Source of the DNA: Bacteroidota bacterium
GTDB lineage: Bacteria; Bacteroidota; Bacteroidia; Bacteroidales; VadinHA17
Assembly: GCA_029547705.1 (NCBI GenBank)
Contig: JAKPOU010000041.1
Coordinates: 124,001-188,000 of the forward strand
Length of the DNA: 64,000 bases
Direction: 5' to 3'
Shown here piece by piece: positions 12,021 to 56,351 of this stretch (the stretch's first letter is position 1; every line of letters starts with the position of its first letter). The notes beneath the pieces were generated by a model. The model was not told the origin of the DNA and did not search any database. It worked only from the letters and a program-made list of their open reading frames with translations. The position numbers and the translations under genes are program-made.

Positions 12021-12077
12021 GGGATATATTATTTTAATAATATTCAGCTTTTAAAATTATTAATTCCTCAGAAATTG

Positions 12078-12085: not shown

Positions 12086-12209
12086 TTAACGTAGAAGTTA
12101 TCAATAGATGTTCACATAACACAATCCGGATTATCAAACATCCGGTACTAAATTCAGAAATACTGTAACGGTTTTTTAATCTTTAATCTTTATTTAAATC
12201 TGTTAATCT

Positions 12210-15353: not shown

Positions 15354-15363
15354 CATATAAAAA

Positions 15364-17157: not shown

Positions 17158-20100
17158 TAAGAATTTTTTCCGGAAGGCTTGTGCCATTTTTAATTCTCAG
17201 TCTGATTTCCGGCCAGGCTTGTAAAACGACAGTAACAACGGATGGATTCAGGAAAGAAATAAGTAACGACCTGAGGGCGGATTTCCTGAATCCGCCTTCT
17301 TATGCACGATTGAGAACATTCTGGTGGTGGCTGAACAGCAATGTGACCAAAGAGTGTATTACACAGGATCTGGAAGCCATGAAGGCTAACGGTTACGGGG
17401 GGGCAATTATATTTGATGCAGGTTCTTCAAATTACACGGTCGCCAAAAAAACAGATGCAGGCCCTGCCTTCCTGAGTGACAAATGGATGGAATTATACGG
17501 TCATGCCATAAAAGAAGCTGATCGCCTTGGCCTGGAACTGACTATTAATGTCCAGAGCGGGTGGAACCCGGGAGGCCCTTCGGTTACACCCGAATTCGCG
17601 ATGAAAAAGATAACCTGGAGTGAAACGGATTTATCCGGTCCCTCAAAAATCAATTCCGCCCTGCCTGATCCAACATCACAATTATTTTACAAAGATATTC
17701 TGGTACAGGCAGTCAGAAAATTTTCTGGAGATCAGGATTCCCCTGGAATCAAAAATCATGCAATTAAAACACTACTTGAAAGGATAGGCTGGTCAGGGAT
17801 TTATCCTCTCCACAAATTAAGAGAAGATTATGATACGGAACCTCTCCACACATTAAACAAAGGTGATATAATAGATGTAACACCGTTTTATAAGGACGGT
17901 ATTCTGACCTGGGATGTGCCTGATGGAGAGTGGACAATTATCCGTTATGGGATGACATGTACCGGAGTAAAAGTTTCAACCTCGAGTGACGGATGGGATG
18001 GACTTTCCATGGATCACCTGAACAGGAATGCATTAACGCGATACAATGAAGATGTGATTTCCAGGTTAATTGCCAGGGCAAAGCAGGAGGGAAATTCTCT
18101 TAAGTTCATTCATACCGACAGCTGGGAAATGGGAGTTGCTAACTGGACACAGGGATTCATGGAAAAATTCAGAGAATTGAGAGGATATGATATGACTGAA
18201 TATATGCCGGTCATAACAAACAGGATCGTGGGTAACAGAGATATCTCAAACCGTTTTCTCCACGATTTTCGCAGAACCGTGAGTGATCTGATTGCTGATG
18301 AATTCTACAAGACTTTTTCGGAAATTGCCCGGCAGAATGACCTTTTTACTCATCCTGAATCAGGCGGGCCTCATTCAGCTCCTATTGATGCAATAAAAAC
18401 CATGGGATACAATGATGTTCCCATGGGTGAATTCTGGGTGCGATCAAACACACACCGGGTATCTGATGCACAAAGGCTATGTGTTAAACAAAGCGCCAGT
18501 GTCGCTCATGTTTACGGTAAACAGTTCGTGGCAGCGGAAGGACCGACAAGCATAGGTCCACATTGGGAAAGACCGCCAAGAGATTGCAAAAATGTAATTG
18601 ACAGGATATTTTGTTCCGGAGTGAACAGGATTGTCTGGCATACCTTTACAGCATCTCCGGATGAATACGGAGAACCAGGAAATGAATATTTTGCCGGAAC
18701 CCATTTGAACAGACATGTAACATGGTGGAAAGAATCTGAAGAATTTATACGATACATGAACCGATGCTCATTTCTTCTCTCACAAGGAAAATTTGTTGCA
18801 GATGCCCTTTATTACTATGGTGACGATACACCTAATTTCATTTTTATCAAAGAAGAAGTTACAGATCTTGGCCAGGGATATGATTGGGATAAATGCAGCC
18901 TCGATGTTCTACTTAACAGAGTCAGAATTAAAGATGGCAAAATTATACTTCCTGATGGAATGACATACCGGATTCTGGTTCTGCCTGAGGAAAAAGCTCT
19001 TAATATCAAACTTTTAAGAAAACTCGAGAAACTGGTGCATGATGGATTAATACTTATCGGTCCAAAACCTGAGAAATCTACTGGATTAACAGAGTATCCG
19101 GAGGTTGATGCAGCGGTTTCTGAAATTGCTGAAAAACTCTGGGGAAATATTGATGGCAATGGTATAAAAGTAAATAAGTTCGGAAAGGGTAAAGTGATTT
19201 GGGGGTTGACTCCGGGAGAGACACTCAGATCTGTTAATATCAACCCTGATTTTAGTTACTCATCAGCAGCCGACAGTACCTGCCTGGAATATATTCATCG
19301 TTCTACCGGAAAGGAGGAAATATATTTCGTTGTAAATCGTCTGGCACGTCATGGTATTTATGATACTCAATACAGGTATCTTACTGATCTCCCGGACAGA
19401 TATGAAGAGGTTGTATGCAAATTCAGGGTAACAGGGAAAATTCCGGAATTATGGAATCCCATGACTGGTGAAATAAAACAACCGGCAGTATACCATGATG
19501 ATGGATATTATACTTATGTGCCTTTGCATTTGAATCCTGAAGGTTCGGTATTTGTGATATTTGTCGCTAATTCTAATGATAAACATATCATAAAGATCGT
19601 GAAAGACGGGGAAGAGATTTTTCCCGCGGCAGTGAGACCCGGATCCAAATTCCCTACGATAGAATGTTATTACACTGAGGAAGGGGTAATAACAACCTTT
19701 TCCCAACCGGGAAATTACACACTCCGCTGGTCCGATGGCACAGAAAATACAACAAATGTAAAAGAACCATTATCCGTAATCCCAATAGACTCTTCCATCA
19801 ATCTTAAATTCCTGAACCAATGGGGTCCGAAAGAGACTATAGCTATTAGTGAATTCAAATCCTGGTCGGATTTTGAAGATAAAAGGATAAAATATTACAG
19901 CGGACCTGCAGAATATTTAACAGTATTTAATCTAAAAAATGGAAGTCTTGCCGGTAAAAAGGTACTTATTGACCTTGGTAATGTTCAGGAGATTGCCGCT
20001 GTATGGATTAATGATGAATATGCAGGAGTAGCCTGGATCGCTCCCTTTATTCTGGATATTACCGGCTTTGTACATGAGGGTAATAATAAACTGACCGTAA

Positions 20101-20285
20101 GAGTTGTGAATTCATGGGTAAACAGGTTGATTGGAGATGGACACCTGCCTCCGGAAAAGCGATACACGCGAACAAATGTCCTTAAATTTGAAGGAGGTGA
20201 CAAGGATCATTTGTTAAGAAAATCGGGATTGACGGATGATATTAAACTGATTATCATTGACGAAAAAATCATTGGACATTTCTAA
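17148..20285 (+). CDS. GH106-type alpha-L-rhamnosidase
   Basis: A 1045-residue secreted enzyme of the GH106 type, which removes alpha-L-rhamnose from complex pectic or arabinogalactan glycans. The N-terminus is a hydrophobic signal with a possible lipobox Cys (GQAC). The family start pattern PPSYARLRTFWWWLNSNVTKE and DLEAMKANGYGGAIIFDAG is clear near residues 45-90. The barrel carries FIHTDSWEMGVANW near residue 325 and HPESGGPHSAPID near 400, both rich in conserved acidic or His residues. Beta-sandwich domains lie toward the C-terminus. It overlaps susD by 10 bp; an alternative ATG lies two codons in, at 17154. Base composition in this gene looks more A+T-rich than in GH78. The exact linkage cleaved is unknown. 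Confidence 0.88.
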   Translation: MEMIRIFSGRLVPFLILSLISGQACKTTVTTDGFRKEISNDLRADFLNPPSYARLRTFWWWLNSNVTKECITQDLEAMKANGYGGAIIFDAGSSNYTVAKKTDAGPAFLSDKWMELYGHAIKEADRLGLELTINVQSGWNPGGPSVTPEFAMKKITWSETDLSGPSKINSALPDPTSQLFYKDILVQAVRKFSGDQDSPGIKNHAIKTLLERIGWSGIYPLHKLREDYDTEPLHTLNKGDIIDVTPFYKDGILTWDVPDGEWTIIRYGMTCTGVKVSTSSDGWDGLSMDHLNRNALTRYNEDVISRLIARAKQEGNSLKFIHTDSWEMGVANWTQGFMEKFRELRGYDMTEYMPVITNRIVGNRDISNRFLHDFRRTVSDLIADEFYKTFSEIARQNDLFTHPESGGPHSAPIDAIKTMGYNDVPMGEFWVRSNTHRVSDAQRLCVKQSASVAHVYGKQFVAAEGPTSIGPHWERPPRDCKNVIDRIFCSGVNRIVWHTFTASPDEYGEPGNEYFAGTHLNRHVTWWKESEEFIRYMNRCSFLLSQGKFVADALYYYGDDTPNFIFIKEEVTDLGQGYDWDKCSLDVLLNRVRIKDGKIILPDGMTYRILVLPEEKALNIKLLRKLEKLVHDGLILIGPKPEKSTGLTEYPEVDAAVSEIAEKLWGNIDGNGIKVNKFGKGKVIWGLTPGETLRSVNINPDFSYSSAADSTCLEYIHRSTGKEEIYFVVNRLARHGIYDTQYRYLTDLPDRYEEVVCKFRVTGKIPELWNPMTGEIKQPAVYHDDGYYTYVPLHLNPEGSVFVIFVANSNDKHIIKIVKDGEEIFPAAVRPGSKFPTIECYYTEEGVITTFSQPGNYTLRWSDGTENTTNVKEPLSVIPIDSSINLKFLNQWGPKETIAISEFKSWSDFEDKRIKYYSGPAEYLTVFNLKNGSLAGKKVLIDLGNVQEIAAVWINDEYAGVAWIAPFILDITGFVHEGNNKLTVRVVNSWVNRLIGDGHLPPEKRYTRTNVLKFEGGDKDHLLRKSGLTDDIKLIIIDEKIIGHF

Positions 20286-29745: not shown

Positions 29746-30621
29746 TTAATACTGCAGGTTCCTTATAAACAGAGCACTGTCACTGAATGTGTCCTGGTCC
29801 ATTTCAACAAAGATATTTTTCAGGCCTCCCTTGCCGGCTGAAGCGAAAAACTCCTTCCAGTCAACAATGCCTTTGCCGAGAGCAACGTTCTTCCGGTCAA
29901 GTATCGAATAGTCTGCAAGGTGAGCAGAAATAAACCTTCCGGGATACTTGTTGAAATAGTCTGCAGCCTTGTATCCGATGTTTATTACAGCAACCTGGAA
30001 CTGCATCTTTACAAGTTCAGGGTCGAACTGATTCAGCAGGGCATCATAGATAAGCACATTGTCAATCTCCCCGAATTCGGTATGATGATTGTGAAACCCG
30101 GTCTGGATGCCGGCTTTTTTAGTCTTTTCGCCGATTCTGTTCAGTTCATCGGCCGCTCTCATCCAGTCACTCATGGTAGCATTTCCGGGAAGCCCGAAAC
30201 TGGACAGAATCATTTGTTTCTGTCCCGATCCGGCTGCAAAGCCGATTCTCTCATCAAGATGCTTACGGAGTTCATCCATGGTGTAGTGCGTACTTTCCAG
30301 AAGCAGGCCGTTATCATTTACTATCTGCTTCATTTCCCTGGCTGACATTTTCATAAGAGGGCCGAAGCCTGATAGTTCATATCCGGGAGGAGAACACATT
30401 TCAACGCTCCTGTAACCAATTCCGGCCATCATTTTCATGGTACCGGCAAAATCCCTGATGACTTGCTCACGGATTGTCCATACCTGGAACCCCAGCGGAT
30501 ATCTTACAGGCCTGGGAGGAGCAATAGCACTGAGGTCCGCAGAGAAATGTGATGCAAGCACTGCTGACCCTATCCCCGCGGCACTTTTACCTATAAACTG
30601 ACGCCTTGTTATTCTCTTCAT
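29746..30621 (-). CDS. Tat-exported sugar phosphate isomerase/epimerase-like TIM barrel
   Basis: A 291-residue protein of the AP-endonuclease-2/xylose-isomerase-like family. The first 30 residues hold a twin-arginine signal (TRRQFIGKSAAGIGSAVLA), so it is probably folded with metal before export. The barrel begins YPLGFQVWTIREQV. Candidate metal ligands are Glu in YRSVEMCSPPGYE, the His pair in GFHNHHTEFGE, His in ISAHLADYSI and Glu in IFVEMDQDTF. Such Tat-exported barrels are common in Bacteroidota and often act on free sugars or inositols; the reaction here is unknown. It is divergent to the amidohydrolase operon with a 280-bp gap and may belong to the same exported pathway. Confidence 0.78.
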   Translation of the reverse strand: MKRITRRQFIGKSAAGIGSAVLASHFSADLSAIAPPRPVRYPLGFQVWTIREQVIRDFAGTMKMMAGIGYRSVEMCSPPGYELSGFGPLMKMSAREMKQIVNDNGLLLESTHYTMDELRKHLDERIGFAAGSGQKQMILSSFGLPGNATMSDWMRAADELNRIGEKTKKAGIQTGFHNHHTEFGEIDNVLIYDALLNQFDPELVKMQFQVAVINIGYKAADYFNKYPGRFISAHLADYSILDRKNVALGKGIVDWKEFFASAGKGGLKNIFVEMDQDTFSDSALFIRNLQY

Positions 30622-30758
30622 ATTGCTTTTTTTTAAGATTCTTATTTAGAGTATTTTGTAACTTTATTCTTTGCCTTTCCTCCTGCTGGCTGAATGAAGC
30701 AATTTAAAAACTAAGATAAAGATATACAGTATTTTAACAATATTTATGAATTGTGCCG

Positions 30759-30789
30759 GTTGAAATTTATTTTAAATATAATACCTTTA
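30759..30789 (+). promoter_or_regulatory. candidate promoter of the amidohydrolase operon
   Basis: A TTGA at 30760-30763 is followed, about 18 bp later, by TACCTTTA (30782-30789), one base from the -7 consensus TAnnTTTG. Spacing fits the Bacteroidota primary sigma factor. It lies 80-110 bp before the candidate starts of the first amidohydrolase. Confidence 0.45.
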
Positions 30790-30901
30790 GCGTGAACTAT
30801 GGCCGGGGCTTCCGTAAAAAATTAAAAAATTTCAGGGAAGCCGCTTACCCGCTTTTGTGCTATGATTTATTATGGAATCTGGTGTTTACAGTATCAACAT
30901 A

Positions 30902-32194
30902 ATGATGATGAACAGGATTAAAAAAATCACCATGCGGACAGGCCTGGCAAAAGCCTGTCTGCTGTTATTTTTATTTATTCTTGCCGGAATTGGTTTGTCC
31001 CACGGGCAGACAATTGATATTCTGCTTAAGGGCGGACATGTAATAGATCCTGCCAACGGCATTGATAAAAAAATGGATGTGGCCATTGCGGGAGGCAAAA
31101 TTCTCCGCGTGGCTCCCGCCATACCTGTCAGGGACGCAAACAAGGTTATTGATGTCAGCGGCATGTATGTTACCCCCGGCCTGATCGACATGCATGTTCA
31201 TGCTTTTCACGGAACGGATCAGGGATCCTATATAGCTGATGGCTGGGATGCCCTGCCTCCGGACGGATTCACTTTCAGGGCAGGTGTTACCACGGTTGTG
31301 GATGCAGGGTCTGCCGGATGGAGAAATTTCAGGAAATTCAAGGAACAGACCATTGACAGATCACGGACAAGAGTCCTTGCTTTTCTCAATATTGTCGGCA
31401 CAGGAATGTACGGCAGATTTGAAGAACAGGATGTAAGTGACATGAATCCCGTAATGGTTTCATATATGATTAAAAGGCTGTTTCCGGATATCCTTGTTGG
31501 TGTCAAGTCGGCCCATTACTGGGGACCGGATTTTACGCAGGTTGATCATGCAGTTGAAGCCGGGAGGCTGGCTGATGTTCCGGTAATGGTCGATCTGGGG
31601 GAACATGATCCGCCTCTTTCAATTGAGGAATTGTTCATGAATCACCTGCGCCCCGGGGATATCTGGACTCATACCTATGCCAATGCTCCCTGGGACCGTG
31701 AGGTGCCGGTGGATGAAAACGGAAGGGTAAAGCCGTTTGTTTTCGAAGCCCAGAAGAGAGGAATTATATTTGATGTTGGCCACGGGGGCGGAGCCTTTCA
31801 CTGGAAACAGGCAATACCTTCGGTACAGCAGGGATTCATTGCTGATGTGATCAGTTCTGATCTTCATATCGGAAGCATGAACAGCGGCATGAAGGATATG
31901 GCGAACCTGCTTTCGAAATTTCTCAATATGGGGCTTTCGCTGGAAGATGTTATCAGACGCGCAACACTTAATCCTGCAAAAGTTATTAAAAGACCGGAAC
32001 TTGGCACTCTCAGTCCCGGTGCTGAAGCCGATGTTGCTGTGTTCAGGCTTCATACGGGTGACTACGGATTCCTGGATGTGCGTGGAACAAAAATGAAAGG
32101 AAACAAGAAGCTTGAGGCCGAACTCACAATTCGTGCGGGAAGGATTGTGTGGGACCTCAATGGCATTGGAGCGCCGGTGTGGAACGAGAAGTAG
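30902..32194 (+). CDS. exported amidohydrolase, COG3964-like (paralogue 1)
   Basis: A metal-dependent amidohydrolase, about 430 residues, with a Sec signal peptide ending near SHGQ. The composite beta domain begins DILLKGGHVIDPANG. The HxH metal pair is His98 and His100 (GLIDMHVHAFHG). A Lys in VGVKSAHYWG fits the carboxylated-lysine position, and further His/Asp ligands lie in IWTHTYAN and ISSDLHIGSMNSG. As I recall, COG3964 members include N-acyl or O-acyl deacetylases and often neighbour SelA-like PLP enzymes. The gene is followed after 23 bp by a second paralogue. Starts at 30872 or 30932 are also possible. The substrate is unknown; export implies a periplasmic one. Confidence 0.8.
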   Translation: MMMNRIKKITMRTGLAKACLLLFLFILAGIGLSHGQTIDILLKGGHVIDPANGIDKKMDVAIAGGKILRVAPAIPVRDANKVIDVSGMYVTPGLIDMHVHAFHGTDQGSYIADGWDALPPDGFTFRAGVTTVVDAGSAGWRNFRKFKEQTIDRSRTRVLAFLNIVGTGMYGRFEEQDVSDMNPVMVSYMIKRLFPDILVGVKSAHYWGPDFTQVDHAVEAGRLADVPVMVDLGEHDPPLSIEELFMNHLRPGDIWTHTYANAPWDREVPVDENGRVKPFVFEAQKRGIIFDVGHGGGAFHWKQAIPSVQQGFIADVISSDLHIGSMNSGMKDMANLLSKFLNMGLSLEDVIRRATLNPAKVIKRPELGTLSPGAEADVAVFRLHTGDYGFLDVRGTKMKGNKKLEAELTIRAGRIVWDLNGIGAPVWNEK

Positions 32195-32217
32195 CAATAA
32201 TATCCGGAGCGGGCGCC

Positions 32218-33501
32218 ATGTTTTGCGCCGGACATATGCGGCAGTCAGTCCTGAATGTTCTGAGGCCGCTGTATTTGCTTCTGCTGTTCTCAGTGCTCCG
32301 TCCGGGCGCTATGATTGCACAGGATATTGACATTCTGCTGCGGGGCGGCCATCTGATTGATGCTAAAAACAAAATAAACGGACGGATGGATATTGCCGTT
32401 TCCAAAGGCAGGATTGTAAAAGTATCTCCGTCGATTCCTTCAGAAAAGGCAGAAAGGGTAATTGATCTGAACGGATTATATGTTACCCCCGGACTAATTG
32501 ATATTCACACTCATGTTTTTGTTGGTCCGGAAGCAGGATTTGCAAATGGTTTTTACAGTGTTTCTCCTGATGATTTTACCTTCAAATCAGGTGTCACTAC
32601 CGTTGCAGATGCCGGAACTTCCGGCTGGAGAAGTTTTCCCCTGTTCAAGAAGCAGGTGATTGACCGGTCCCAGACCAGAGTGCTTGCTTTTCTGAATATT
32701 GCAGGATCGGGTATGACGGGATTTCCCTCGGAAGAGGATATAAATGATATGGATGCCCGTATGACTTCGCTGGTAATAGGTCAGTATCCCGATATAATTG
32801 TTGGAGTAAAGATCGGTCATTACAGGGGGAGTGACTGGACTCCCTTTGACAGGGCTGCCGAAGCGGCCGGAATTTCTGATGTTCCTCTTCTGGTTGAATG
32901 TCATCTGCCACTGCTTCCGCTGGAAGGAATACTTTCGAGGATGAAGGAAGGGGATATTTACACTCATTCCTTTTGTGTTGCTTCCGACAGGGAATGCCTT
33001 CTGGATGAAAAGGGAAGGATAAAGCCCTTTGTGGCTGAGGCACGGAAAAAGGGAATAAGGTTCGACGTGGGGCACGGGGGAGGTATGTTTCATTTCAATG
33101 TTGCCATACCTGCATTCAGGCAGGGACTGTGGCCCGATTCCTTCGGCACCGATCTTCACCGCATAAGCATGAATTCAGGGATGAAAAACATGCTTGATAT
33201 TATGTCGAAGTACCTGAATATTGGTATGAGTTTTGAAGACATCATTTCCAGGGCTACCTGGAATCCGGCACAGTCTCTCAAACGGGAGGATCTCGGACAC
33301 CTTGGCGAAGGGGCCGTGGCCGATATTGCCGTTTTCAGCATCAGGGAAGGAAGATTCGGTTTCATTGATGCAGCGGGATACAGGCTTGACGGAGACCGCA
33401 GAATAGAGACCGAACTTACCATTCGCGCGGGCAGGGTGGTATATGACCAGAACGGAATCTCAGCCAGAAGCTGGCTTGAAAACCAGACAATCAAATTTTA
33501 A
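32218..33501 (+). CDS. exported amidohydrolase, COG3964-like (paralogue 2)
   Basis: Second copy of the amidohydrolase family, about 427 residues, tandem with paralogue 1. A hydrophobic signal (LYLLLLFSVLRPGAMIAQ) precedes the DIDILLRGGHLIDAKNK domain start. The HxH motif reads GLIDIHTHVFVG. The putative carboxylated Lys is in VGVKIGHYRGSD, and the Asp in FGTDLHRISMNSG. It differs most after strand 5 (LLVECHLPLLPLE where paralogue 1 has MVDLGEHDPPLSIE), so substrate preference may differ. The ATG at 32218 has GGAG 8 bases upstream; ATG 32236 is an alternative. It is 42 bp ahead of the SelA-like gene, consistent with one operon. Confidence 0.8.
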   Translation: MFCAGHMRQSVLNVLRPLYLLLLFSVLRPGAMIAQDIDILLRGGHLIDAKNKINGRMDIAVSKGRIVKVSPSIPSEKAERVIDLNGLYVTPGLIDIHTHVFVGPEAGFANGFYSVSPDDFTFKSGVTTVADAGTSGWRSFPLFKKQVIDRSQTRVLAFLNIAGSGMTGFPSEEDINDMDARMTSLVIGQYPDIIVGVKIGHYRGSDWTPFDRAAEAAGISDVPLLVECHLPLLPLEGILSRMKEGDIYTHSFCVASDRECLLDEKGRIKPFVAEARKKGIRFDVGHGGGMFHFNVAIPAFRQGLWPDSFGTDLHRISMNSGMKNMLDIMSKYLNIGMSFEDIISRATWNPAQSLKREDLGHLGEGAVADIAVFSIREGRFGFIDAAGYRLDGDRRIETELTIRAGRVVYDQNGISARSWLENQTIKF

Positions 33502-33543
33502 CTGAAATTACAGAAATCCTGAATATTAACTGAACAAAACACC

Positions 33544-35157
33544 ATGAAACGAAGAGATATTATTAAAAGTCTGACAATTCTGCCTTTTGCAGGAAGCTTT
33601 CTTCCCCTGGAATCAGCTTTATCCAAAGGCACGGGACCTCTTGTACCGGGTCCGAATATTTACCAGTCGATAGGCGTGGAGCCGGTTATAAACTGCATGG
33701 GTACATTCACCATTATCAGCGGATCCCTTGAACGGCCGGAGGTCATTGAAACAATAGGATATGCTGCCCGTCATTTCGTCCAGATGGACGAGCTGGCAAT
33801 GGGAATAGGCAGACGCCTGGCTGAACTGACCGGGGCTGAATGGGGTATGGTATCTGCCGGATGTGCCGCCGGAATGAAGCATGTTACAGCTGCCTGCGTT
33901 TCGGGCGGCAATCCTGAAAAACTGATCAGGATACCCGATCTGACAGGACTTGACAAAACAGAGGTTGTTATCCCCCGTAGTTCCAGGAATGCCTATGATC
34001 ATGCCATACGAAATATAGGAATAAGCATTATTACTGTTGACAGTCTTGAGGAACTGGAAAAATCGCTGAATTCCCGTACTGCAATGATATATGTTATGAC
34101 CGGAAATGACACCCTGCCGGGGAACAGGTTTGCCATCGACAAGATAGCTGCCCTGGCAAAACCAAAAGATATTCCCTTCCTTGTTGATGCAGCGGCAGAG
34201 GATCTGACCATTCCGAACGTTCATCTCCTGGCAGGGGCCTCCATTGTTGCCTACAGCGGAGGGAAGGCCATGTGTGGCCCTCAGGGTGCCGGTTTGCTCC
34301 TGGGCCGGAAAGACCTGCTTATGTCAGCCTGGCAGGCAAGTTCCCCCCATCACGGGACAGGCAGGGACAATAAGGTCGGCAAGGAGGAAATGATGGGAAT
34401 GCTTGCAGCAGTGGAAGCATGGATCAAACGTGATCATGATGAAAAATACCGGACATGGATGACCTATCTTGACAATATTTCAAAGCGGGTATCTAAGATA
34501 AAAGGCATTAAAACGGAAATAAGGGAACCCCAGGGTCTTGATCTGAATAACAGAAGCCCGGTCCTGATGATTTCATGGGATTCCTCAGGATTTAATATTA
34601 CAGGTCCCGATATTGCCGAGATCCTCGCAAACACCAAGCCGAGAATAGCACTCCGCGGTACCGGCAATGACGAGGACGGGACTTCATCCCTGAGAGTTAA
34701 TTCGGGGCAGATGCAGCCGGGGGATGATAAGATTGTTGCAGACAGGATCTTTGAACTCCTGTCGAAGAAATATCCGAAACCTTCGGCGATGGCCGCGCCG
34801 GCTGCTGATATAAGCGGAAGATGGGCAGTTGATGTTCAGTTCTTCAGCAGCAAAGGGAGTCATGCATTTTTACTGGAACAGGACGGAAACTGGCTGCAGG
34901 GATCTCACAAGACTGAATTCTCGTTCAGGGAAATTGTCGGTACCATTGAAGGTGACCAGGTTAAACTGAGCAGTACCGAGAGGCTCACTGCCGACAGTGT
35001 GCCCTATATCTTCTCCGGAACTTTATCGGGAGATACCATTAGCGGACAGATTCATCTTGGAGAATACCTGAATGCAACATTTACTGCCAGGAAGAATGAT
35101 TACCGGGTTTCCCGCAGGCAGATAAGATATCCTAAAGGCCAGCCGCTGGCAACCTGA
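33544..35157 (+). CDS. Tat-exported SelA-like PLP enzyme with extra C-terminal beta domain (paralogue 1)
   Basis: A fold-I PLP enzyme of the SelA/D-glucosaminate-6-phosphate ammonia-lyase-like group. The N-terminus is MKRRDIIKSLTILPFAGSF, a twin-arginine signal. Family segments include PVINCMGTFTIISGS, and the PLP lysine is Lys241 in YSGGKAMCGPQGAG. The aspartate that pairs with the pyridine nitrogen is in FLVDAAAED. The catalytic part ends near residue 410. Residues 420-537 form an added beta-rich domain starting DISGRWAVDVQFFSSKG, not part of SelA. The gene has no tRNA-related context, so true selenocysteine synthesis is unlikely. The probable chemistry is ammonia elimination or racemisation of an amino or amino-sugar acid, in the periplasm. 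Confidence 0.78.
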   Translation: MKRRDIIKSLTILPFAGSFLPLESALSKGTGPLVPGPNIYQSIGVEPVINCMGTFTIISGSLERPEVIETIGYAARHFVQMDELAMGIGRRLAELTGAEWGMVSAGCAAGMKHVTAACVSGGNPEKLIRIPDLTGLDKTEVVIPRSSRNAYDHAIRNIGISIITVDSLEELEKSLNSRTAMIYVMTGNDTLPGNRFAIDKIAALAKPKDIPFLVDAAAEDLTIPNVHLLAGASIVAYSGGKAMCGPQGAGLLLGRKDLLMSAWQASSPHHGTGRDNKVGKEEMMGMLAAVEAWIKRDHDEKYRTWMTYLDNISKRVSKIKGIKTEIREPQGLDLNNRSPVLMISWDSSGFNITGPDIAEILANTKPRIALRGTGNDEDGTSSLRVNSGQMQPGDDKIVADRIFELLSKKYPKPSAMAAPAADISGRWAVDVQFFSSKGSHAFLLEQDGNWLQGSHKTEFSFREIVGTIEGDQVKLSSTERLTADSVPYIFSGTLSGDTISGQIHLGEYLNATFTARKNDYRVSRRQIRYPKGQPLAT

Positions 35158-35249
35158 GCCGGAGGAATGCGGGCTTATCCAAACAAATATTGAAATAATG
35201 TGTTTTATGATAAATAGTAATTACTTAAACTGAATCTAATAGTAAATAA

Positions 35250-36854
35250 ATGAAACGACGTGACTTTATAAAACTCTCATCTGCTGCAGGAGTGATGGGA
35301 CTTATTAATCCTTCGCATGATGCTTTGGCCTCTTCCGGCCTGCAGGGCGGAAATGGTTTTGACCTTCATCCCTTCATAAAGGAGCATCCGGAAGCTGTTT
35401 TCATTAATCTGACTTCGGTTGGAGCACCGGATGACAGCCAGGCCATTCATGATGCTGCATTCAAGCTGGCAGGGGAAATGTTTGTCAGAACCAGTGACGG
35501 CAGCGGATATCCCTTATCCACGGCAATAACCTGCAAGCCCAACTGGACATGTACGGGAAGGCCGGATCCGAATGACCCGATTTCTGCCCTGGGAATAACC
35601 ACGGATCTCAACTATATTGAAGGATTTCTTAAAGGTGTGAAAACACTGGGACCTGAAAAGTTTTACCTGAGGGAATGTGCCTGCACACATCAGTGGGAGC
35701 CGCTGGGTTATTATGACATGGCAAGGAGAAATAATTTCGACCTGAAAGATCTGACTTCCAAGGATTACTGGGATCTGCCCGAAGGGGAAATCATTTTCAG
35801 GGAAGTGAACGGGGGAGTGGTGTTCAGGGAAGTCGGTATCATGGCACCCATGACGGCGGACGGTACCTTCCTTATCAACCTGGCCAAGCTTAAAGCCCAT
35901 CAGATGGGAATAACAGCTGCAGTGAAAAACCTCCAGGGAATAACAGCAAGAAGATTTCACCAGTTCTGCGGTGGGAATTACAATATTTTCAAGACCTACG
36001 ACAAGCGTTATCACAAATTCTTCCAGCCCGATTATATGGAGAAAATTGCGGAACTTCAGAAAATTCATGAAGACCGTGGAATGCCCAGATGGAAAAGCAA
36101 GGTGGACAGGCCCCCTTACGGAGGCGGTTTCTGGATGGAACAATGGGTTCAGAGAATGATAGACGCCTACAGTGTCATACCAACCGGGATAAATATTGTG
36201 GAAGGTGTGTATGCTCAGGACGGTGATGGCTTTAATGGCGGCCCGCATGACGGGAAGCCTGGAAAATTCATGTCCAACAACGTGATTTTCGGAAAGGATG
36301 CATTCAGGGTAGATATTATTTCTCACTGGCTTGCAGGTCATGAACCAGGCAATTTCGGACTGTTCCATATCGGGATTGAACGCGGTGTATCGGATGTCCT
36401 TGATCCTTTTGACATACCTGTATATCTGTGGGAGAACGGAAAGGCAACAAAAGTGAATCTGGACAGCCTGAAGCGCACTCCTCTGGTTACTCTTTATCTG
36501 AGGAAAAACTGGGACGGACATGATGAGGAGCGCTATCACCTGGTAAATGAGCCGTTTGACTATTCCGCATGGAAAACGGGTACAATGGCTTATGACAGGC
36601 AGCCTTCAATAAGGGCACTCGGAACGGACAGCAGGGATGGTATTGTTATGGAAGTAAACGTCCCGGAAGAAAGTGATGTTTATGTAGACGTTAAAAACCG
36701 TTTCGGGGATGTTGTCTGGCGTTTGAAGGCCGACGGCCTTGAGCCCGGAAAGCATGAAGTGGTTTGGGACGGATTTTCACAGCCCGGCATGTACACAATG
36801 TATGTTAAGGGAATGGGCTGGGATGCCGAACGTGAAATGGTTATATACACCTAA
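35250..36854 (+). CDS. Tat-exported DUF362-like protein with FlgD-type C-terminal domain
   Basis: A 534-residue protein starting MKRRDFIKLSSAAG, a good twin-arginine signal. The core resembles DUF362, with FLINLAKLKAHQMGITAAVKNL near residue 210 as the clearest match. Cysteines in ITCKPNWTC, LRECACTHQW and HQFCGG could bind a cofactor; the usual 4Cys ferredoxin motif seen in some DUF362 proteins is not present. The last 70 residues (VYVDVKNRFGDVVWRLKADG, then VVWDGFSQPGMYTMYVKG) resemble the FlgD Ig-like fold. It lies 92 bp after the PLP gene and is the last gene of the plus-strand operon, facing the second PLP operon. DUF362 function is unsettled. Confidence 0.65.
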   Translation: MKRRDFIKLSSAAGVMGLINPSHDALASSGLQGGNGFDLHPFIKEHPEAVFINLTSVGAPDDSQAIHDAAFKLAGEMFVRTSDGSGYPLSTAITCKPNWTCTGRPDPNDPISALGITTDLNYIEGFLKGVKTLGPEKFYLRECACTHQWEPLGYYDMARRNNFDLKDLTSKDYWDLPEGEIIFREVNGGVVFREVGIMAPMTADGTFLINLAKLKAHQMGITAAVKNLQGITARRFHQFCGGNYNIFKTYDKRYHKFFQPDYMEKIAELQKIHEDRGMPRWKSKVDRPPYGGGFWMEQWVQRMIDAYSVIPTGINIVEGVYAQDGDGFNGGPHDGKPGKFMSNNVIFGKDAFRVDIISHWLAGHEPGNFGLFHIGIERGVSDVLDPFDIPVYLWENGKATKVNLDSLKRTPLVTLYLRKNWDGHDEERYHLVNEPFDYSAWKTGTMAYDRQPSIRALGTDSRDGIVMEVNVPEESDVYVDVKNRFGDVVWRLKADGLEPGKHEVVWDGFSQPGMYTMYVKGMGWDAEREMVIYT

Positions 36855-36880
36855 TACCCGGGAAGTCCCTTCCCGGGTAT
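36854..36880. repeat. perfect inverted repeat after DUF362 gene
   Basis: ATACCCGGGAAG / CTTCCCGGGTAT, a 12-bp perfect stem with a 3-base loop, directly after the DUF362 stop codon. It lacks a T-run on the plus side, so it may be an mRNA 3'-end stabiliser or a weak terminator. Confidence 0.6.
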
Positions 36881-36906
36881 CAGGTAACTAAAAGGAGCAG
36901 GGAATT

Positions 36907-36956
36907 AAAAAAAGCTTCTGTCAGAACCCATTTAAGAAGTGGTGGCAGAAGCTTTT
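36907..36956 (-). terminator. intrinsic terminator overlapping the end of the second PLP gene
   Basis: Read on the minus strand, AAAAGCTTCTG (in the last codons of the PLP gene) pairs with CAGAAGCTTTT 25 bases later, followed at once by a T-run. The upstream arm is coding sequence for the C-terminal residues of the protein, which is uncommon. Confidence 0.6.
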
Positions 36957-38149
36957 GTCAGTTCTTCGGCAATCCTTGCCGCCACAATAATTTCCTGCCC
37001 TGGTTCCATCATGAAAGCCGTTATGTTAATACTGTTTCCACCGCCGGCAACCACCTCAATGGATGGATTTCCCCTGCGGAGTCTTTCCTGGAATTCTTCG
37101 CGGCTGACCTTTATCACTTCAGGATCCCATTCGATATTCAGTGTGGGAGTGTGGTTGGCTATCGGAGGAACGGTAACGCTTGTCCTTACTCCGGCTGTCT
37201 TTTTTGCCGCGTTTTCGATGTGTGCGATCCTGTCTTCCCATATTTTCCATTCCCTGTCGTGATCAAGATTGACATATCTTTCAAGCGCGGCATACATTCC
37301 GACAACTTCTTCCTTGTTTACCTTCATGCCTCTGCCTATGTTGCCTCCGCGGGGCGGGGCATTAAGCCGGGCTGCCTCGATAAGATCTTTCCTTCCCATC
37401 AGGATACCGGCGCTTTGCGGTCCTCTGAGCCCTTTTCCACCGGAGATGCAGACCAGGTCAAATCCCATGTCGTTAAATTTCCAGAGATTTTCAACGGGCG
37501 GAACATCAGCAGCAATATCAATCATTGTGGGAATATTATGCTTTCTTCCCAGTTCCACCCATTCCCTGTCCTGAATTTTCCCGAGAGGGGCGGTATAATT
37601 AAGAAACCAGAGCATGGCAGTCTTTTCGTTGATAGCCTTTTCCAGTTCCTCAACCGTTTCCACGGCTATAATTTTTACTCCTGTGTTCTTGAGTGCATGT
37701 ACATAACCGGTATTATGACTTACCTGAGTGATTACCTCAGATTTCAGTCCTTCAAGATCGGGGAGCTGTCCGATTTTTGCCTGATCCTTTCCGGTAATTA
37801 CCCCTGCAGTCCCGAGTACCATTGCCGACCAGCAGCCGGCTGTTACAGTGGCTGCTTCGGCATGACAGATTTCCGCAATCTTTTCACCGGCCTTGTCCTG
37901 AACGTCATCCAGAAGAACAAATTCCTTTGATGCAGCAACCATTGCCTCCATTACTTCATCCGGCAGCAGGGAACCCGTCATGAATGTATAGGTGCCGGCT
38001 GCATTGATGAAAGTCCTGAGTCCGAGTTCGCGCAGCACATCCCGTTTAACCGGTGAGGCACAGGAAGATACCAATGGAATGGTACTTCCCATTGCCACTC
38101 CGGCCACCGGCAGAATTGTTAATCCTTTGATAACATCTCTGCGTTTCAT
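36932..38149 (-). CDS. Tat-exported SelA-like PLP enzyme, probable lipoprotein (paralogue 2)
   Basis: A 405-residue fold-I PLP enzyme, paralogue of the plus-strand copy but without the extra C-terminal domain. It starts MKRRDVIKGLTILPVAG and then shows a lipobox LVSSC, so it reads as a Tat-exported lipoprotein. Family features are FINAAGTYTFMTGSLLPDEV, an Asp in TMIDIAADVPPVE and the PLP lysine Lys239 in ISGGKGLRGPQSAG. Relatives include D-glucosaminate-6-phosphate ammonia-lyase, which makes an enamine. The gene lies 15 bp downstream of an exported RidA, an enzyme that clears exactly such intermediates, and after a third amidohydrolase. Substrate unknown. Confidence 0.78.
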   Translation of the reverse strand: MKRRDVIKGLTILPVAGVAMGSTIPLVSSCASPVKRDVLRELGLRTFINAAGTYTFMTGSLLPDEVMEAMVAASKEFVLLDDVQDKAGEKIAEICHAEAATVTAGCWSAMVLGTAGVITGKDQAKIGQLPDLEGLKSEVITQVSHNTGYVHALKNTGVKIIAVETVEELEKAINEKTAMLWFLNYTAPLGKIQDREWVELGRKHNIPTMIDIAADVPPVENLWKFNDMGFDLVCISGGKGLRGPQSAGILMGRKDLIEAARLNAPPRGGNIGRGMKVNKEEVVGMYAALERYVNLDHDREWKIWEDRIAHIENAAKKTAGVRTSVTVPPIANHTPTLNIEWDPEVIKVSREEFQERLRRGNPSIEVVAGGGNSINITAFMMEPGQEIIVAARIAEELTKASATTS

Positions 38150-38164
38150 CTCAGCTTATTCTTA

Positions 38165-38629
38165 TTAAATATAAGCGATGCAATCCATTTCAACGAGTGA
38201 GTTTCCGGGCACACCACCCTTGGCCACTGCCACGGTTGTACGGACCGGGGGTTTGCTGCCGAAGCGTCCTGCATACACCTCATTCATTCCCTGGTAGTCC
38301 TTTATATCATCTAGGTATACATTTACTTTAAGGACTTTTTCCATTGAGGATCCGGCTTTGATGAGCTCATCTTCAAGCTCCTTCAGCACAATTTCAGTGT
38401 GGTTTTTGATTGTAAAAGGCTCGACATGTGCGCCTTTACCGGCTATGAATACGAGATTGCCATATTTGGTGTGACCTGAGAACATGGGAGCTCTCTGGAA
38501 ACTGGTGATATTATCCGCTTCTTTCTCCTTTGCGACGCTTGTTGCTGCTTTGGCTGCCACTCCAGCTCCGGCTAAACCCAGAACAGATGCAAACATTTTC
38601 TTCAGTGCAGATCTTCTTTCAGTTTTCAT
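38165..38629 (-). CDS. exported RidA/YjgF-family enamine/imine deaminase
   Basis: A 154-residue RidA-family protein. Cytoplasmic RidA is about 128 residues and hydrolyses reactive enamines and imines released by PLP dehydratases. Here about 35 extra residues form a signal with a double Arg (MKTERRSALKKMFASVLGLAG, then Ala-rich), so export by Tat or Sec is likely. The family core is intact: FSGHTKYGNLVFIAGKG, and the substrate carboxylate-binding Arg is Arg130 in KPPVRTTVAVAKGGVPG. It lies 15 bp upstream of the PLP enzyme and 134 bp after the third amidohydrolase on the same strand, matching a role in finishing their reaction. Confidence 0.85.
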   Translation of the reverse strand: MKTERRSALKKMFASVLGLAGAGVAAKAATSVAKEKEADNITSFQRAPMFSGHTKYGNLVFIAGKGAHVEPFTIKNHTEIVLKELEDELIKAGSSMEKVLKVNVYLDDIKDYQGMNEVYAGRFGSKPPVRTTVAVAKGGVPGNSLVEMDCIAYI

Positions 38630-38637
38630 GTTTTTTA

Positions 38638-38720
38638 GTTTAATGATTTGTGATTAATGATTTGTAATTTAATGATTTGTAATTTAATGATTTGTGATTG
38701 ATTGTTTGTAAATAATAATT
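38638..38720. repeat. A+T-rich tandem repeats of about 15 bp
   Basis: Four to five copies of a unit close to TAATGATTTGTAATT, with spacing of 14-16 bp and drift to TTGATTGTTTGTAAA at the right end. They lie between the third amidohydrolase and ridA, just upstream of ridA. Such short AATC/ACAAATC arrays occur between genes in Bacteroidales, as I recall; function is unknown. Confidence 0.75.
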
Positions 38721-38763
38721 TTTAATTAGTAGCCTGTGAATTATAAGTTTCAGCCGGCAGCTG

Positions 38764-40026
38764 CTATCTCCTGCCTGCCAGTACAACCGGATTGGCAATT
38801 CCGTTGAGGTCGTATACTATCCTGCCGCCCCTGATTGTCATTTCGCATTCAAGCTTCTGGTCACTTTCCAGCTTATGGCCGGTATAGTCAAACAGCCCGA
38901 ACTTGCCCTTCCTGAGGTTCAGGATTGCAATATCAGCATCACTGCCCACCGAGAGGTTGCCCAGCTCCTCGCGCTTGATCACCCTGGCCGGTTCCGAAGT
39001 GGTTGCCTTGATCACACTCTGCAGGTCCATTCCCATAGCCAGGAATTTTGACATTGTTGTAACAAGATCCTTCATTGCTGCATTCATGCTTCCGATATGC
39101 AGGTCAGTGCTTATCACATGGGGATAGAGACCGCTTTTTATGGCGGGTATTCCCTGTGAATAGGCAAAGCTGATTCCACCGTAGCCGACATCAAATATTA
39201 TGCCTCTCTTTATGGCATCCCATACGAAGGGTTTAACCTTGCCTGCAACAGGATCTACAACATATTCCCTTCCGCTTCCCAGCTGGGCAAAGCAGTGGGT
39301 GAAGATGTCGCCCGGACGAAGATGTTTCATAAACAGCTCTTCAATGGGAAGAGGAGGTTCAGCGCCGCCGAAATCTATCATCACGGGCATATCAGCTATT
39401 CTGCCAGCTTCAACAGTAAGGTCGGTAGGCTCCCATTCGTGCCCTGAATAATGAGCGAGCTTTATACCTACAATATCTTCAGAGTGTTTTTTTGCATATT
39501 CACCTGTTCTTACCGGCTCCATGTCCTTCAGGTTCTGTTCCGCGGGGCCGCCTCTCATACCGTCTCCCACAATATTCAGCAGGGCCAGGACACGGGTCTG
39601 GGACCTGTCAATTATATTTCTTTTGAAATCGGGAAAGGATCTCCATCCGGCACAGCCGGCATCAACAACCGTGGTAACACCTGAACGGAAGGTAAATCCG
39701 TCGGGAGTCACCGAACTGGGCCCGTTCGAATACTGATGGTCAAGAACCGTACCCTGAAAAACATGCACATGCATGTCAATAAGCCCGGGTGTAACATAAA
39801 ATCCCCTTGCGTCAACCACCTGTCTTCCTTCCTTTGCATCGATATTTTTGGCAACCATAGCTATCTTGCCGTCTTTTACGGCAACATCCATTACGGCATT
39901 GATATTATTTTTAGGGTCAATAACATGTCCGCCCTTGATAACGATATTATAGGTCTGGCCCACCGCTAATCCGCTGACCATTAGACTAATAAAGAGAAAC
40001 AACAGTCTTTGTAATTTCATTTTCAT
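38764..40026 (-). CDS. exported amidohydrolase, COG3964-like (paralogue 3)
   Basis: Third amidohydrolase of the block, 420 residues, with a Sec signal (LQRLLFLFISLMVSGLAVGQ). The HxH motif is His86 and His88 in GLIDMHVHVFQG. The putative carboxylated Lys lies in VGIKLAHYSGHEW, a His in IFTHCFAQ, and the catalytic Asp in ISTDLHIGSMNAAM. Where both other copies read FDVGHGGG this one has FDVGYGGI, replacing a His with Tyr. It heads the minus-strand group amidohydrolase, ridA, PLP enzyme, and starts 60 bp after hflC on the same strand, so it may have its own promoter or be read through from hflKC. Substrate unknown. Confidence 0.8.
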   Translation of the reverse strand: MKMKLQRLLFLFISLMVSGLAVGQTYNIVIKGGHVIDPKNNINAVMDVAVKDGKIAMVAKNIDAKEGRQVVDARGFYVTPGLIDMHVHVFQGTVLDHQYSNGPSSVTPDGFTFRSGVTTVVDAGCAGWRSFPDFKRNIIDRSQTRVLALLNIVGDGMRGGPAEQNLKDMEPVRTGEYAKKHSEDIVGIKLAHYSGHEWEPTDLTVEAGRIADMPVMIDFGGAEPPLPIEELFMKHLRPGDIFTHCFAQLGSGREYVVDPVAGKVKPFVWDAIKRGIIFDVGYGGISFAYSQGIPAIKSGLYPHVISTDLHIGSMNAAMKDLVTTMSKFLAMGMDLQSVIKATTSEPARVIKREELGNLSVGSDADIAILNLRKGKFGLFDYTGHKLESDQKLECEMTIRGGRIVYDLNGIANPVVLAGRR

Positions 40027-45871: not shown

Positions 45872-47509
45872 TTAGTTTAATCCAAAAATTTTCAAATCTT
45901 CTTCCACGGTGCCATTCACCCGGACTCCGAATTTCTCCTGTACAATTTTCAGGACATTGGGTGTGAGGAATCCGGGCAGGGTGGGACCGATATGGGTATT
46001 TTTTATTCCCAGGTAGAGCAATGCAAGGTGAACGATAACGGCCTTTTGTTCGTACCATGCAATATTGAAAACTATCGGAAGCTTGTTTATATCGTCAAGA
46101 TTCAGAACCTCCTTGAGCTTGAGTGCCACATATGCCCATGAATAGGAATCATTGCACTGTCCTGCATCAAGCACTCTCGGAATTCCGTTGATATCACCCA
46201 GGTTCAGTTTGTTGTAGCGGTATTTTGCACAGCCTGATGTAAGGATGACAGTATCTGCCGGAAGACTTTTTGCAAATTCCGTATAATATTCCCGGCTTTT
46301 CTGGCGGGCGTCACAGCCTGACATCACGACCATTTTTCTTATAGCTCCCGAATTTACAGCTTCGAGGATCTTGTCAGCAAGAGAGAGCACCTGGTTGTGT
46401 GCAAAACCTATTGTGATTTCGCCGCTTTCAATTTCCGAGGGTGGCGGACATTTTTTTGCGAGTCCGATGATTTCGGAAAAATCCTTTTGCCCGTCCGGCA
46501 GTTTTTTATCAATGGATTTCCACCCGGGCATTCCTGTTGCTCCTGTTGTAAATATCCTGTCATTGTAAGTACTGGTTTTTCTCGGCGGAACAAGACAGTT
46601 GGTGGTGAAAAGCACGGGTCCGTTGAAGGTTTCAAATTCCTCCAGCTGGCGGTGCCATGCATTGCCGTAATTGCCGGCAAGGTGGCTGTATTTTTTTAGT
46701 GCGGGATATGCATGGGAAGGAAGCATTTCGGAGTGAGTATAGATATCCACTCCCTGACCTTCTGACTGTTTCAGCAGTTGTTCGAGATCCCTGAGATCAT
46801 GTCCGCTGACAAGTATTCCCGGACGGCTTCGGGTTCCTATATTTACCTTTGTTATTTCCGGATTGCCGTATGTTGAAGTATTTGCCCTGTCAAGAAGAGC
46901 CATTACCCTGACTCCGTATTCACCTGTTTTCATTACCCAGCTGAGCATGGAATCAAGATCGGCCGGCTTTCTCAGCATTACCAGGGTCTGTTCCATGAAA
47001 TCAAATATGTCGTTGTCTTCAAAGCCCAGGTTGAAGGCATGTTCGGCATATGCTGCCATTCCTTTTATACCGTACAGAGCATATTGTTTCAGTGAACGTA
47101 CATCTTCATCCGTATCAAACGTCAATGTGCCGACCTGCCGGGCTTTTTCATAAAGATCCTGGTCACTGCCGCCATTCCATGTAACGCAGTCATATTTTTC
47201 CGCAACATTTACCCTGGCTTTCAGACTGTCCCTGTAATTCAGACATTCCCTTACAGCCTGGATAATGCTTCTGTCATCAAAATTCGCATTTGTAATTGTC
47301 ATGAACAGGCAATTGGTGATATGCTTGCTTTCTGCATTTGTACTGATTCCCTGTCTGCGGGCTTCGATGGTGGCAAATGAGAGCCCCTGACATGCAAATA
47401 TCAATAAATCCTGGATGTTGGCTGTTTCTTCTTTTTTACCACAGACCCCGTTTATTGTACAGCCTGTGTTCTTAGCCGTCTCCTGACACTGGTTGCAAAA
47501 CATACTCAT
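45872..47509 (-). CDS. hcp: hydroxylamine reductase (hybrid cluster protein)
   Basis: A 545-residue iron-sulfur protein containing a 4Fe cluster and the hybrid Fe-S-O cluster. It reduces hydroxylamine and acts in nitric oxide detoxification or S-nitrosylation. The N-terminal cysteine set Cys5-Cys8-Cys17-Cys23 ([13 protein letters not shown]) is the class I/II motif of anaerobes. Hybrid-cluster ligands are seen in [42 protein letters not shown] and VLDAGQCND. Length is normal. It is monocistronic, with a promoter and palindrome upstream. No HcpR or NsrR regulator is visible nearby. Its presence suggests an anaerobic or microaerobic life with nitrosative stress. Confidence 0.95.
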
Positions 47510-52226: not shown

Positions 52227-52391
52227 AAAATTGTGGTTTATGGATTCTGGATTTTTCTTTGCTTCCATAGTGTTTTTGTTTTTTGAAAATCTGTTCCCCT
52301 GCCGGACAGGAGATTGTGGAATTTCTAAAAATACATAAAATTTGTATATTTATTGACGAGTTTATTTTACCTCGTTAATCATAGTAATGAT

Positions 52392-54104: not shown

Positions 54105-54190
54105 AAGGGCACCCGGAACCGGCCGGGAAAAATCCGGAGGGTCAACAATTCTGAGCTATAAATCAAAAAACATTGTCATAAATATTTATC

Positions 54191-55117
54191 ATGCTGAAAT
54201 TCAAAAAATTTGAAGGCCTTGTGGCAGCTCCTTTTACTCCGATGGACAGCAAGGGGAATCTTGTCCCTGAACTGATACCGGAGTATTATGATTTTCTAGC
54301 CGTAAATGGCGTTACCGGTGCATTTATAAACGGTTCAACGGGTGAAGGCCCGTCCCTTACACAGAAAGAAAAATTTCTTCAGGCAGAGCAGTGGGCGAAA
54401 TGTCTGAAGAATGACGGAAGGGTGAGGGTTATCAATATGGTGGGCGGTACTTCCTACGGAGAATGCAGGGAAAATGCGGTTTTTTCCTATGAAATCGGAC
54501 TGTCGGCAGTTGCAATGGTGGCCCCTTATTACTTCAGGCCGGCGAACCCAGGGGCTCTTGCGGAATTTGTTGCAATGACGGGGGAATCGGTACCGGAAAT
54601 GCCCGTATATTTTTATCACATCCCGGTTCTTACCGGTGTGAAAATTCCAATGCTTGAATTCCTGAAGAAAATAACAAATATGCTTCCCAATTTTGCCGGA
54701 TTGAAATATACCGATGAAGATCTCATGGATTTTATGTCGTGTATAAATTATGAAGGCGGAACCTATGACATGCTTTACGGCAGGGATGAATGCATGCTGC
54801 CTGCCCTTGCCCTGGGATGCAGGGGCTTTGTAGGAAGCACCTATAATTATGCTGCGCCTTTATACCATGCCCTTATCAGTGCCTTTGACAAGGGTGATCT
54901 GAAAAAAGCAAGGGAATTGCAGCAAAAATCGATTGATATGATTTATCTGCTTGACAAATACGGAGGTATGAATACCGGGAAAGCATATATGAAGCTGGCA
55001 GGCTTCGATTTCGGTAAATTCAGGACACCCGTCACCAGAATGGCGGATGAGCGCTTCAATGAATTCAGGGAGGATGTCAGACTGCTTGACATGGATCACC
55101 TCTTTTCGAAAAAATAA
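54191..55117 (+). CDS. nanA: N-acetylneuraminate lyase
   Basis: A class-I aldolase splitting N-acetylneuraminate into pyruvate and N-acetylmannosamine in the cytoplasm. 308 residues. The DHDPS-fold motif GSTGEGPSLTQKEK is at residues 48-61. The Schiff-base Lys is Lys172 in GLKYTDEDL, and the catalytic Tyr is Tyr142 in FYHIPVLTGV. These residues (KYTDxDL, YHIP) distinguish sialate lyase from dihydrodipicolinate synthase. The epimerase gene starts 19 bp after its stop. Located between the sialidase and the epimerase, it is clearly part of a sialic acid degradation operon. Confidence 0.95.
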   Translation: MLKFKKFEGLVAAPFTPMDSKGNLVPELIPEYYDFLAVNGVTGAFINGSTGEGPSLTQKEKFLQAEQWAKCLKNDGRVRVINMVGGTSYGECRENAVFSYEIGLSAVAMVAPYYFRPANPGALAEFVAMTGESVPEMPVYFYHIPVLTGVKIPMLEFLKKITNMLPNFAGLKYTDEDLMDFMSCINYEGGTYDMLYGRDECMLPALALGCRGFVGSTYNYAAPLYHALISAFDKGDLKKARELQQKSIDMIYLLDKYGGMNTGKAYMKLAGFDFGKFRTPVTRMADERFNEFREDVRLLDMDHLFSKK

Positions 55118-55136
55118 CAGGATATAAATAGTTTTA

Positions 55137-56324: not shown

Positions 56325-56351
56325 ACATAGTATTTTCCCAGCAATAGCCTT

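Follow-up and report, generated by a model that had tools for sequence, protein, structure and literature searches.

A run of eight consecutive genes, all with export-type N-termini, was found at positions 29746-40026 of a window of 64,000 nucleotides, the whole stretch analysed, from a Bacteroidota bacterium of the VadinHA17 lineage (GCA_029547705.1, contig JAKPOU010000041.1). These genes are probably part of an extracytoplasmic pathway for N-acyl-hexosaminic acids, for instance N-acetyl-glucosaminate or N-acetyl-galactosaminate. The gene content, the conserved export signals, the linkage and the catalytic residues are read directly from the sequence. The substrate, all of the reactions, their order and the location in vivo are our inferences from these. 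In the first step, the acyl group would be taken off by a Sec-exported amidohydrolase of the COG3964 type. A Tat-exported, DgaE-like enzyme loaded with pyridoxal phosphate (PLP) would then eliminate the C3 hydroxyl and release an enamine or imine, and a Tat-exported RidA would accelerate its hydrolysis to ammonia and a 2-keto-3-deoxyhexonate.

Gene families, layout and export signals

Families were assigned with Pfam and NCBIfam models and their curated cut-offs, and these together with the coordinates confirmed the eight genes, the families, the order and the convergence of two operons that the initial annotation had described. The plus-strand operon has the order AH1-AH2-PLP-A-DUF362. AH1 (P0002, 30872-32194) and AH2 (P0003, 32149-33501) are Sec-like exported COG3964-type amidohydrolases, with 436 and 411 bits against NF006689, the PRK09237 amidohydrolase/deacetylase model (cut-off 371 bits). 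The first 29 listed codons of P0003 are probably untranslated, and an ATG near 32236 as start gives a clean signal. They are followed by a Tat-type DgaE/SelA-like PLP enzyme, PLP-A (P0004, 33544-35157), which in the alignment has an additional C-terminal stretch of about 120 residues, and by a Tat-type DUF362 protein (P0005, 35250-36854; PF04015, 62.5 bits against a cut-off of 24). The minus-strand operon, convergent to the first, has the order AH3-RidA-PLP-B. It consists of a third Sec-like exported COG3964-type amidohydrolase (P0008, 38764-40026; NF006689, 450 bits), a Tat-type RidA of the Rid family (P0007, 38165-38629; PF01042, 67.3 against 27.3 bits) and a second Tat-type DgaE/SelA-like PLP enzyme (P0006, 36932-38149), possibly a lipoprotein, with a possible lipobox. 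At the left end of the cluster and divergent lies P0001 (29746-30621, minus strand), with a Tat-type signal and a xylose-isomerase-like TIM barrel (PF01261, 39.5 against 31.1 bits). We propose AH1 as candidate N-acyl-hexosaminate deacylase, PLP-B as candidate hexosaminate ammonia-lyase and P0007 as candidate enamine/imine deaminase. A scan for promoter-like sites (23 against 15.5 expected) and terminator-like sites (10 against 10.4 expected) was uninformative.

Signals had been claimed for all eight proteins, and all eight have Tat-like or Sec-like N-termini. A Tat-like rule, which asks for a twin-arginine motif with a hydrophobic stretch after it, was passed by five (P0001, P0004, P0005, P0006 and P0007) and by only 3 of the 32 other open reading frames (ORFs) of at least 140 amino acids in the window; the N-termini of the three amidohydrolases are strongly hydrophobic and Sec-like. 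The Tat-like signal is kept in 82/91 homologues of PLP-B, 5/5 of PLP-A and 40/45 of RidA1, well over the background of 43/587 unrelated ORFs of the same related loci. This conservation and the background counts rule out a chance run of export signals. TatC is encoded in the genome; together with the motif and its conservation in homologues, its presence points to Tat export of P0004 to P0007.

Linkage across Bacteroidota and recurrent neighbours

The initial annotation had expected the three enzyme types to co-occur in homologous clusters, and two surveys agree with it. In 395 Bacteroidota genomes (limits of E<=1e-40 for the PLP enzyme, 1e-20 for RidA and 1e-60 for the amidohydrolase, with up to four PLP or amidohydrolase candidates scored per genome), the PLP enzyme was found in 8 genomes and this RidA in the same 8, while the amidohydrolase was present in those 8 and in 4 genomes of one other genus. 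In each of the 8 carriers a single contig bears all three genes, in a span of about 13 kb or less. There are 1.37e16 ways of choosing 8 genomes from 395, a figure that is no probability, the genomes being related. With 8 carriers the system is sparse, about 2% of the sample.

For the second survey, named genomes were scanned with 17 aligned PLP proteins as the query. At least 559 relatives came out, and the 80 with the best scores were kept, giving 79 loci; four contigs occur twice, and with this choice the set leans to close relatives. The titles listed are of Bacteroidota, with Fodinibius of the neighbouring Balneolota. Neighbours were counted within about 10 kb of the PLP gene, some contigs being short. 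The amidohydrolase was found in 66 of the 79 loci, any RidA in 53 (RidA1 in 43, RidA2 in 20) and both in 51; the loci with 20.9 kb or more of sequence, 54 in all, gave 45, 38 and 38, respectively. A linkage confined to the genome of the window is thus ruled out. Genes for GSDH-like proteins were found in 51 loci (a count that includes GSDHn, under the Pfam cut-off with 21.9 against 25 bits), SusC in 31 and CBM9 in 26; SusC, SusD and SnoaL were labelled by eye in the related loci. One locus (L105 935-2142, from the Bacteroidales MAG AS10tlH2TH_9) has a near-identical layout and a 95% identical PLP-B split into two frames, by sequencing error or decay.

Several partners recur beside the three enzymes. 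These are GSDH with cytochrome c (PF07995 and PF00034), SMP-30/gluconolactonase (SGL, PF08450), an RraA-like aldolase (PF03737), an SBF transporter (PF01758), a second exported Rid protein (PF14588) and CBM9 proteins. An operon of Flavobacteriaceae, CBM9-GSDHc-AH-SBF-RraA-RidA1-PLP-RidA2 (AH, amidohydrolase), occurs in L137 and L161. Three further loci (L094, L096 and L098) have the order SusC-SusD-PLP-AH-DgoK-KDPG-type aldolase-MFS-PLP (KDPG, 2-keto-3-deoxy-6-phosphogluconate; MFS, major facilitator superfamily), the amidohydrolase frame of L096 being split. DgoK, a 2-keto-3-deoxygalactonate kinase, scores 172.8 bits in L094 and 205 bits in L098 (PF05035, cut-off 25), and the aldolases of these loci pass TIGR01182 with 175.3 and 173.3 against 156.05 bits. 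The MFS protein of the L094 type is nearest to a D-galactonate transporter model, under its cut-off. L099 has DgoK and the aldolase, and of the two L097, a short contig, has DgoK only. In total DgoK is found in 5 of the 79 loci, 4 of them with the KDPG-type aldolase, and these amount to about three independent cases, since L094, L096 and L097 are near-identical. Beside the PLP, amidohydrolase and DgoK genes of L099 there is also a Tat-like enolase-superfamily protein (17101-18342), nearest to galactonate dehydratase and under the cut-off. It is a possible exported aldonate dehydratase that would supply the same keto acid.

A keto acid had been suggested as the end product of the exported route, and the kinase, aldolase, lactonase and transporter neighbours support this and narrow it to a probable 2-keto-3-deoxyhexonate. 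Oxidation of the sugar to the acid would fall to an exported GSDH-cytochrome c protein in many relatives, with a gluconolactonase in some. The keto acid may then enter the cell through a transporter of the SBF or galactonate-type MFS kind, for a kinase and a KDPG/KDPGal aldolase; alternatively, it would be cleaved outside the cytoplasm by an exported RraA-like aldolase. It is conceivable, though doubtful, that a full extracytoplasmic amino-sugar catabolism exists, from sugar oxidation to RraA-like aldol cleavage, with a PLP lyase that has swapped on-enzyme protonation for an exported RidA, and that such a pathway is patchily distributed through many Bacteroidota lineages.

In the genome of the window (3.78 Mb, 92.9% complete) the RidA family is represented by four genes, and there are five PLP relatives and five amidohydrolase relatives. 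A second copy of the set on contig C66 (locus L005) has amidohydrolase, PLP and RidA genes adjacent on one strand, in the order AH-PLP-RidA as against AH-RidA-PLP in the window, and its PLP and RidA proteins are Tat-like. This set adjoins a protein of the GlcNAc-2-epimerase family (PF07221, 67.5 against 23.4 bits; NF052547, 149 bits, under the cut-off), and some kilobases off there is another PLP gene as well as a Gfo/Idh protein. Contig C40 (L163) harbors a PfkB protein like 2-keto-3-deoxygluconate (KDG) kinase, an SBF transporter, a KDPG aldolase (PRK07114, 338.6 against 275 bits), a gluconolactonase and SusD/SusC-like genes together, as well as a small protein labelled SnoaL by eye only. 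Its SBF and gluconolactonase share about 50-57% identity with their counterparts in the related clusters, and the sugar-acid kinase matches of its PfkB protein are under the curated cut-offs. The same contig, which is without PLP or amidohydrolase relatives of the queries, carries a solitary Tat-type RidA-family protein (L006 8901-9395). Of the RraA-like proteins, two are on C50 and one on C27, and one lies directly 3' of a probable lipoprotein amidohydrolase (L018).

These neighbours bear on the alternative that the same three exported enzymes use non-sugar N-acyl beta-hydroxy amino acids, for instance N-acyl-D-serine, N-acyl-D-threonine or amides derived from peptidoglycan or lipids, and yield small keto acids. 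COG3964 relatives of the Atu3266 type have N-acetyl-D-amino acids and acetyl-mandelate as substrates. Among NCBIfam models, the SBF protein of the genome scores best with a ketopantoate/pantoate transporter, under its cut-off, and 2-aminoacrylate is a classic RidA substrate, as discussed in PMC9529869. The sugar-acid neighbours (gluconolactonase, GSDH, DgoK, KDPG-type aldolases and the galactonate-type MFS) argue for hexosaminic acids instead and make this alternative rather unlikely.

Catalytic residues and alternative readings

All three amidohydrolases of the window are over the NF006689 cut-off, and the predicted structure of AH3 (pLDDT 90.8) matches 8je0, 8wzy, 2ics and 2ogj. With EF_0837 and Atu3266 (2ics and 2ogj) and with 8je0 they have in common the family, the fold and most metal ligands, with roles as in Atu3266. 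The HxH motif, the Lys, the beta-6 His and the beta-8 Asp are kept in 20/20 sequences. In contrast to these relatives, the window enzymes have export-type N-termini and the beta-5 His of Atu3266 and 8je0 is replaced, by Asp in 18/20 and by Glu in 2/20 (Asp in AH1 and Glu in AH2). With this conserved replacement deacylase activity is not assured, and this is the main caution at the sequence level. It would suit an altered metal site with other chemistry, as in a lactonase or epimerase, and a pathway that starts from the free amino acid. We consider this improbable, the remaining ligands being kept in all 20 and the deacetylase model being passed by every window copy.

It is very unlikely that the N-terminal segments serve as membrane anchors, or are left over from former signals, and that the enzymes work on the cytoplasmic side in an ordinary sugar-acid pathway. 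Of the five Tat candidates, P0001 alone had a reported match to the Tat model TIGR01409 (19.4 against 16.7 bits), and as many as 280/587 background ORFs pass a hydrophobicity limit of 2.0 at the N-terminus, so that the Sec-like N-termini are less telling than the Tat-like ones. Against this, the Tat-like motif of PLP-B and RidA1 is conserved far over its own background, as given above. Most of the other partners have a hydrophobic N-terminus by a looser count (amidohydrolases 85/90, RraA 13/13, SGL 11/11, GSDHc 51/51 and RidA2 17/20), whereas DgoK and the neighbouring KDPG-type aldolases start without one.

For both PLP enzymes TIGR01437 (selA_rel) was the top-scoring model, with 149 bits for P0004 and 158 for P0006 against a curated cut-off of 385, and the DgaE equivalog NF047797 was not passed either (144 and 135 against 600 bits). 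Residues were compared in 112 aligned sequences with DgaE (7lc0), whose catalytic lysine, Lys-217 in PMC9529869, has the number 213 in the printed PDB chain. This Lys is found in 112/112, and the position of Arg-226, at the alpha-carboxylate, has Arg or Lys in 107/112. The arginines 301, 332 and 346, which lie near the modelled phosphate in DgaE according to PMC9529869, are Arg in only 2, 4 and 0 of the 112, although an Arg occurs within two columns of position 301 in 36/112. Only 1/112 has His at the position of His-163, in a variable loop where the column assignment is uncertain. PLP-A too has the Lys; PLP-B has the Lys and is without His-163 and the phosphate Arg cluster.

In DgaE, His-163 protonates the enamine; the H163A variant is still active, an intermediate absorbing at 293 nm accumulates, and protonation was proposed to occur in solution, with release of free enamine (PMC9529869). 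The near absence of the phosphate arginines fits an unphosphorylated substrate, and the loss of His-163 may explain the dedicated RidA. The exported PLP enzymes may thus use an unphosphorylated substrate and release an enamine that the paired RidA clears. The least probable of the alternatives is that they are Cap15-like, O2-dependent enzymes, for decarboxylation or oxidation of a beta-hydroxy amino acid without elimination of ammonia: Cap15 (8t7j, oxygen- and PLP-dependent by its title) is as near to the predicted structure of P0006 (pLDDT 88.3) as DgaE 7lc0, with a TM-score of 0.80 each, and in the alignment it too is without His-163, while it keeps all three phosphate arginines, absent from nearly all of the exported group, and a RidA, a kinase and a KDPG-type aldolase as partners point to a keto acid and not to an amide.

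The catalytic residues of the Rid proteins, with roles as in E. coli RidA, are well conserved. RidA1 has the Arg (Arg-130) in 58/58 and the Glu (Glu-147) in 57/58 aligned sequences, the sole exception being a Gln in the C66 copy of the same genome, and RidA2 has both in 26/26. P0007 shares the fold family and these residues with the RidA/YjgF enamine-imine deaminases, and is under the TIGR00004 cut-off (64.5 against 106 bits). It differs from the usual members by its Tat-type signal and its dedicated position in a catabolic operon; the canonical RidA of the genome (C29) has no N-terminal signal extension.

Several observations weigh against the N-acyl-hexosaminate pathway, besides the beta-5 replacement, the PLP scores under the cut-offs of the DgaE models, the uncertain His-163 column, the Arg near position 301, the small number of independent DgoK cases and the sub-threshold matches of the MFS and PfkB proteins. 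Within about 10 kb, 26 of the 79 loci have no RidA, 13 no amidohydrolase and 9 none of amidohydrolase, RidA, GSDH, SGL and RraA, and SBF, RraA and SGL are present in only 17, 14 and 14 loci. Pfam and NCBIfam models detected no transporter, kinase, aldolase, lactonase or dehydrogenase among the eight cluster genes. A GSDH-c homologue was not found in the 92.9% complete genome, in a search without positive control. Finally, the TIM barrel and the DUF362 protein have no step in the proposed pathway.

Homologues of these two are each present in 3/79 related loci. The PDB relatives of P0001 are 8tcd and 8tcs, for which a literature search gave nothing relevant, and a search on 3-keto-sugars did not settle the role of the TIM barrel. 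The PLP-B loci without partners (L104, L125, L129, L134, L138, L140, L146, L147 and L155) are possibly a subgroup with another role.

Other loci are present in the window. At 49872-57599, near the cluster, there are a GH92 glycosidase, a BNR sialidase-like protein, a DHDPS-family lyase (nearest to N-acetylneuraminate lyase, under the cut-off), a GlcNAc 2-epimerase family protein and an MFS transporter, which looks like a locus for the use of sialic acid and glycans. Alpha-L-rhamnosidases (PF17389 and GH106), a GH127-like protein and a TonB receptor/SusD pair, assigned by the family library, are found at 5008-20285, in what looks like a locus for the use of rhamnose glycans. A prismane/CO dehydrogenase family protein (45872-47509) and a Fic/DOC family protein of 493 amino acids (60473-61954) were also detected.

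Relation to known systems and meaning

Catabolism of amino sugars normally follows import, and the enzymes proposed here belong to types that usually act in the cytoplasm. On the best reading, the window cluster would be an exported variant of the cytoplasmic ong and Dga routes. The ong pathway of Pseudoalteromonas prydzensis (OngB, OngC, OngD and KdgK, for GlcNAc1A) has the same roles of N-deacetylase, PLP deaminase and RidA protein, and continues with KDG kinase, a kdgA aldolase gene being added in some genera (PMC9537276). Unlike the exported set, which has signals and belongs to another phylum, it is described there as cytoplasmic, behind an SSS importer, and as almost restricted to Gammaproteobacteria. 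The enzymes are also of other families, as compared for OngB by profile match (the sequence of the solved PpOngB structure matches the amidohydrolase profile over positions 25-92 only). The ong RidA protein is essential for growth, with a role given as unknown in the same text, and OngC formed ammonia and KDG in vitro without it. Therefore RidA is no proof of an enamine-releasing lyase, a further point against the proposed pathway, and the RidA step would not be indispensable to it.

DgaE shares with the exported PLP enzymes the fold, the catalytic Lys and a basic alpha-carboxylate site, and would share the conversion of a hexosaminate to a 2-keto-3-deoxyhexonate. It acts after PTS uptake on a phosphorylated substrate and protonates the enamine with its own His-163, whereas most enzymes of the exported group are without this His and the arginines 301/332/346. 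PvdN, a PLP enzyme of pseudomonads, is presumably not of the SelA-like family. Both PvdN and PtaA are PLP enzymes exported folded by Tat, as proposed here, although they tailor siderophores by other PLP chemistry (PMC6206403). Tat export of a PLP enzyme thus has precedent; what the initial annotation had expected to be unusual was PLP chemistry with its own RidA outside the cytoplasm. No description of an exported route with RidA, SelA-like enzyme and amidohydrolase was found in searches of the open-licence PMC literature.

If a conserved exported route exists, PLP-dependent elimination, enamine detoxification and ammonia release would sit outside the cytoplasm, which could explain in physiological terms why a RidA is exported by Tat. 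Many exported proteins that so far match only general models for amidohydrolases, SelA-like enzymes and RidA would also gain a function. Since DgaE has His-163 and the exported enzymes do not, the two form a natural contrast in which the idea that RidA replaces an active-site proton donor becomes testable.

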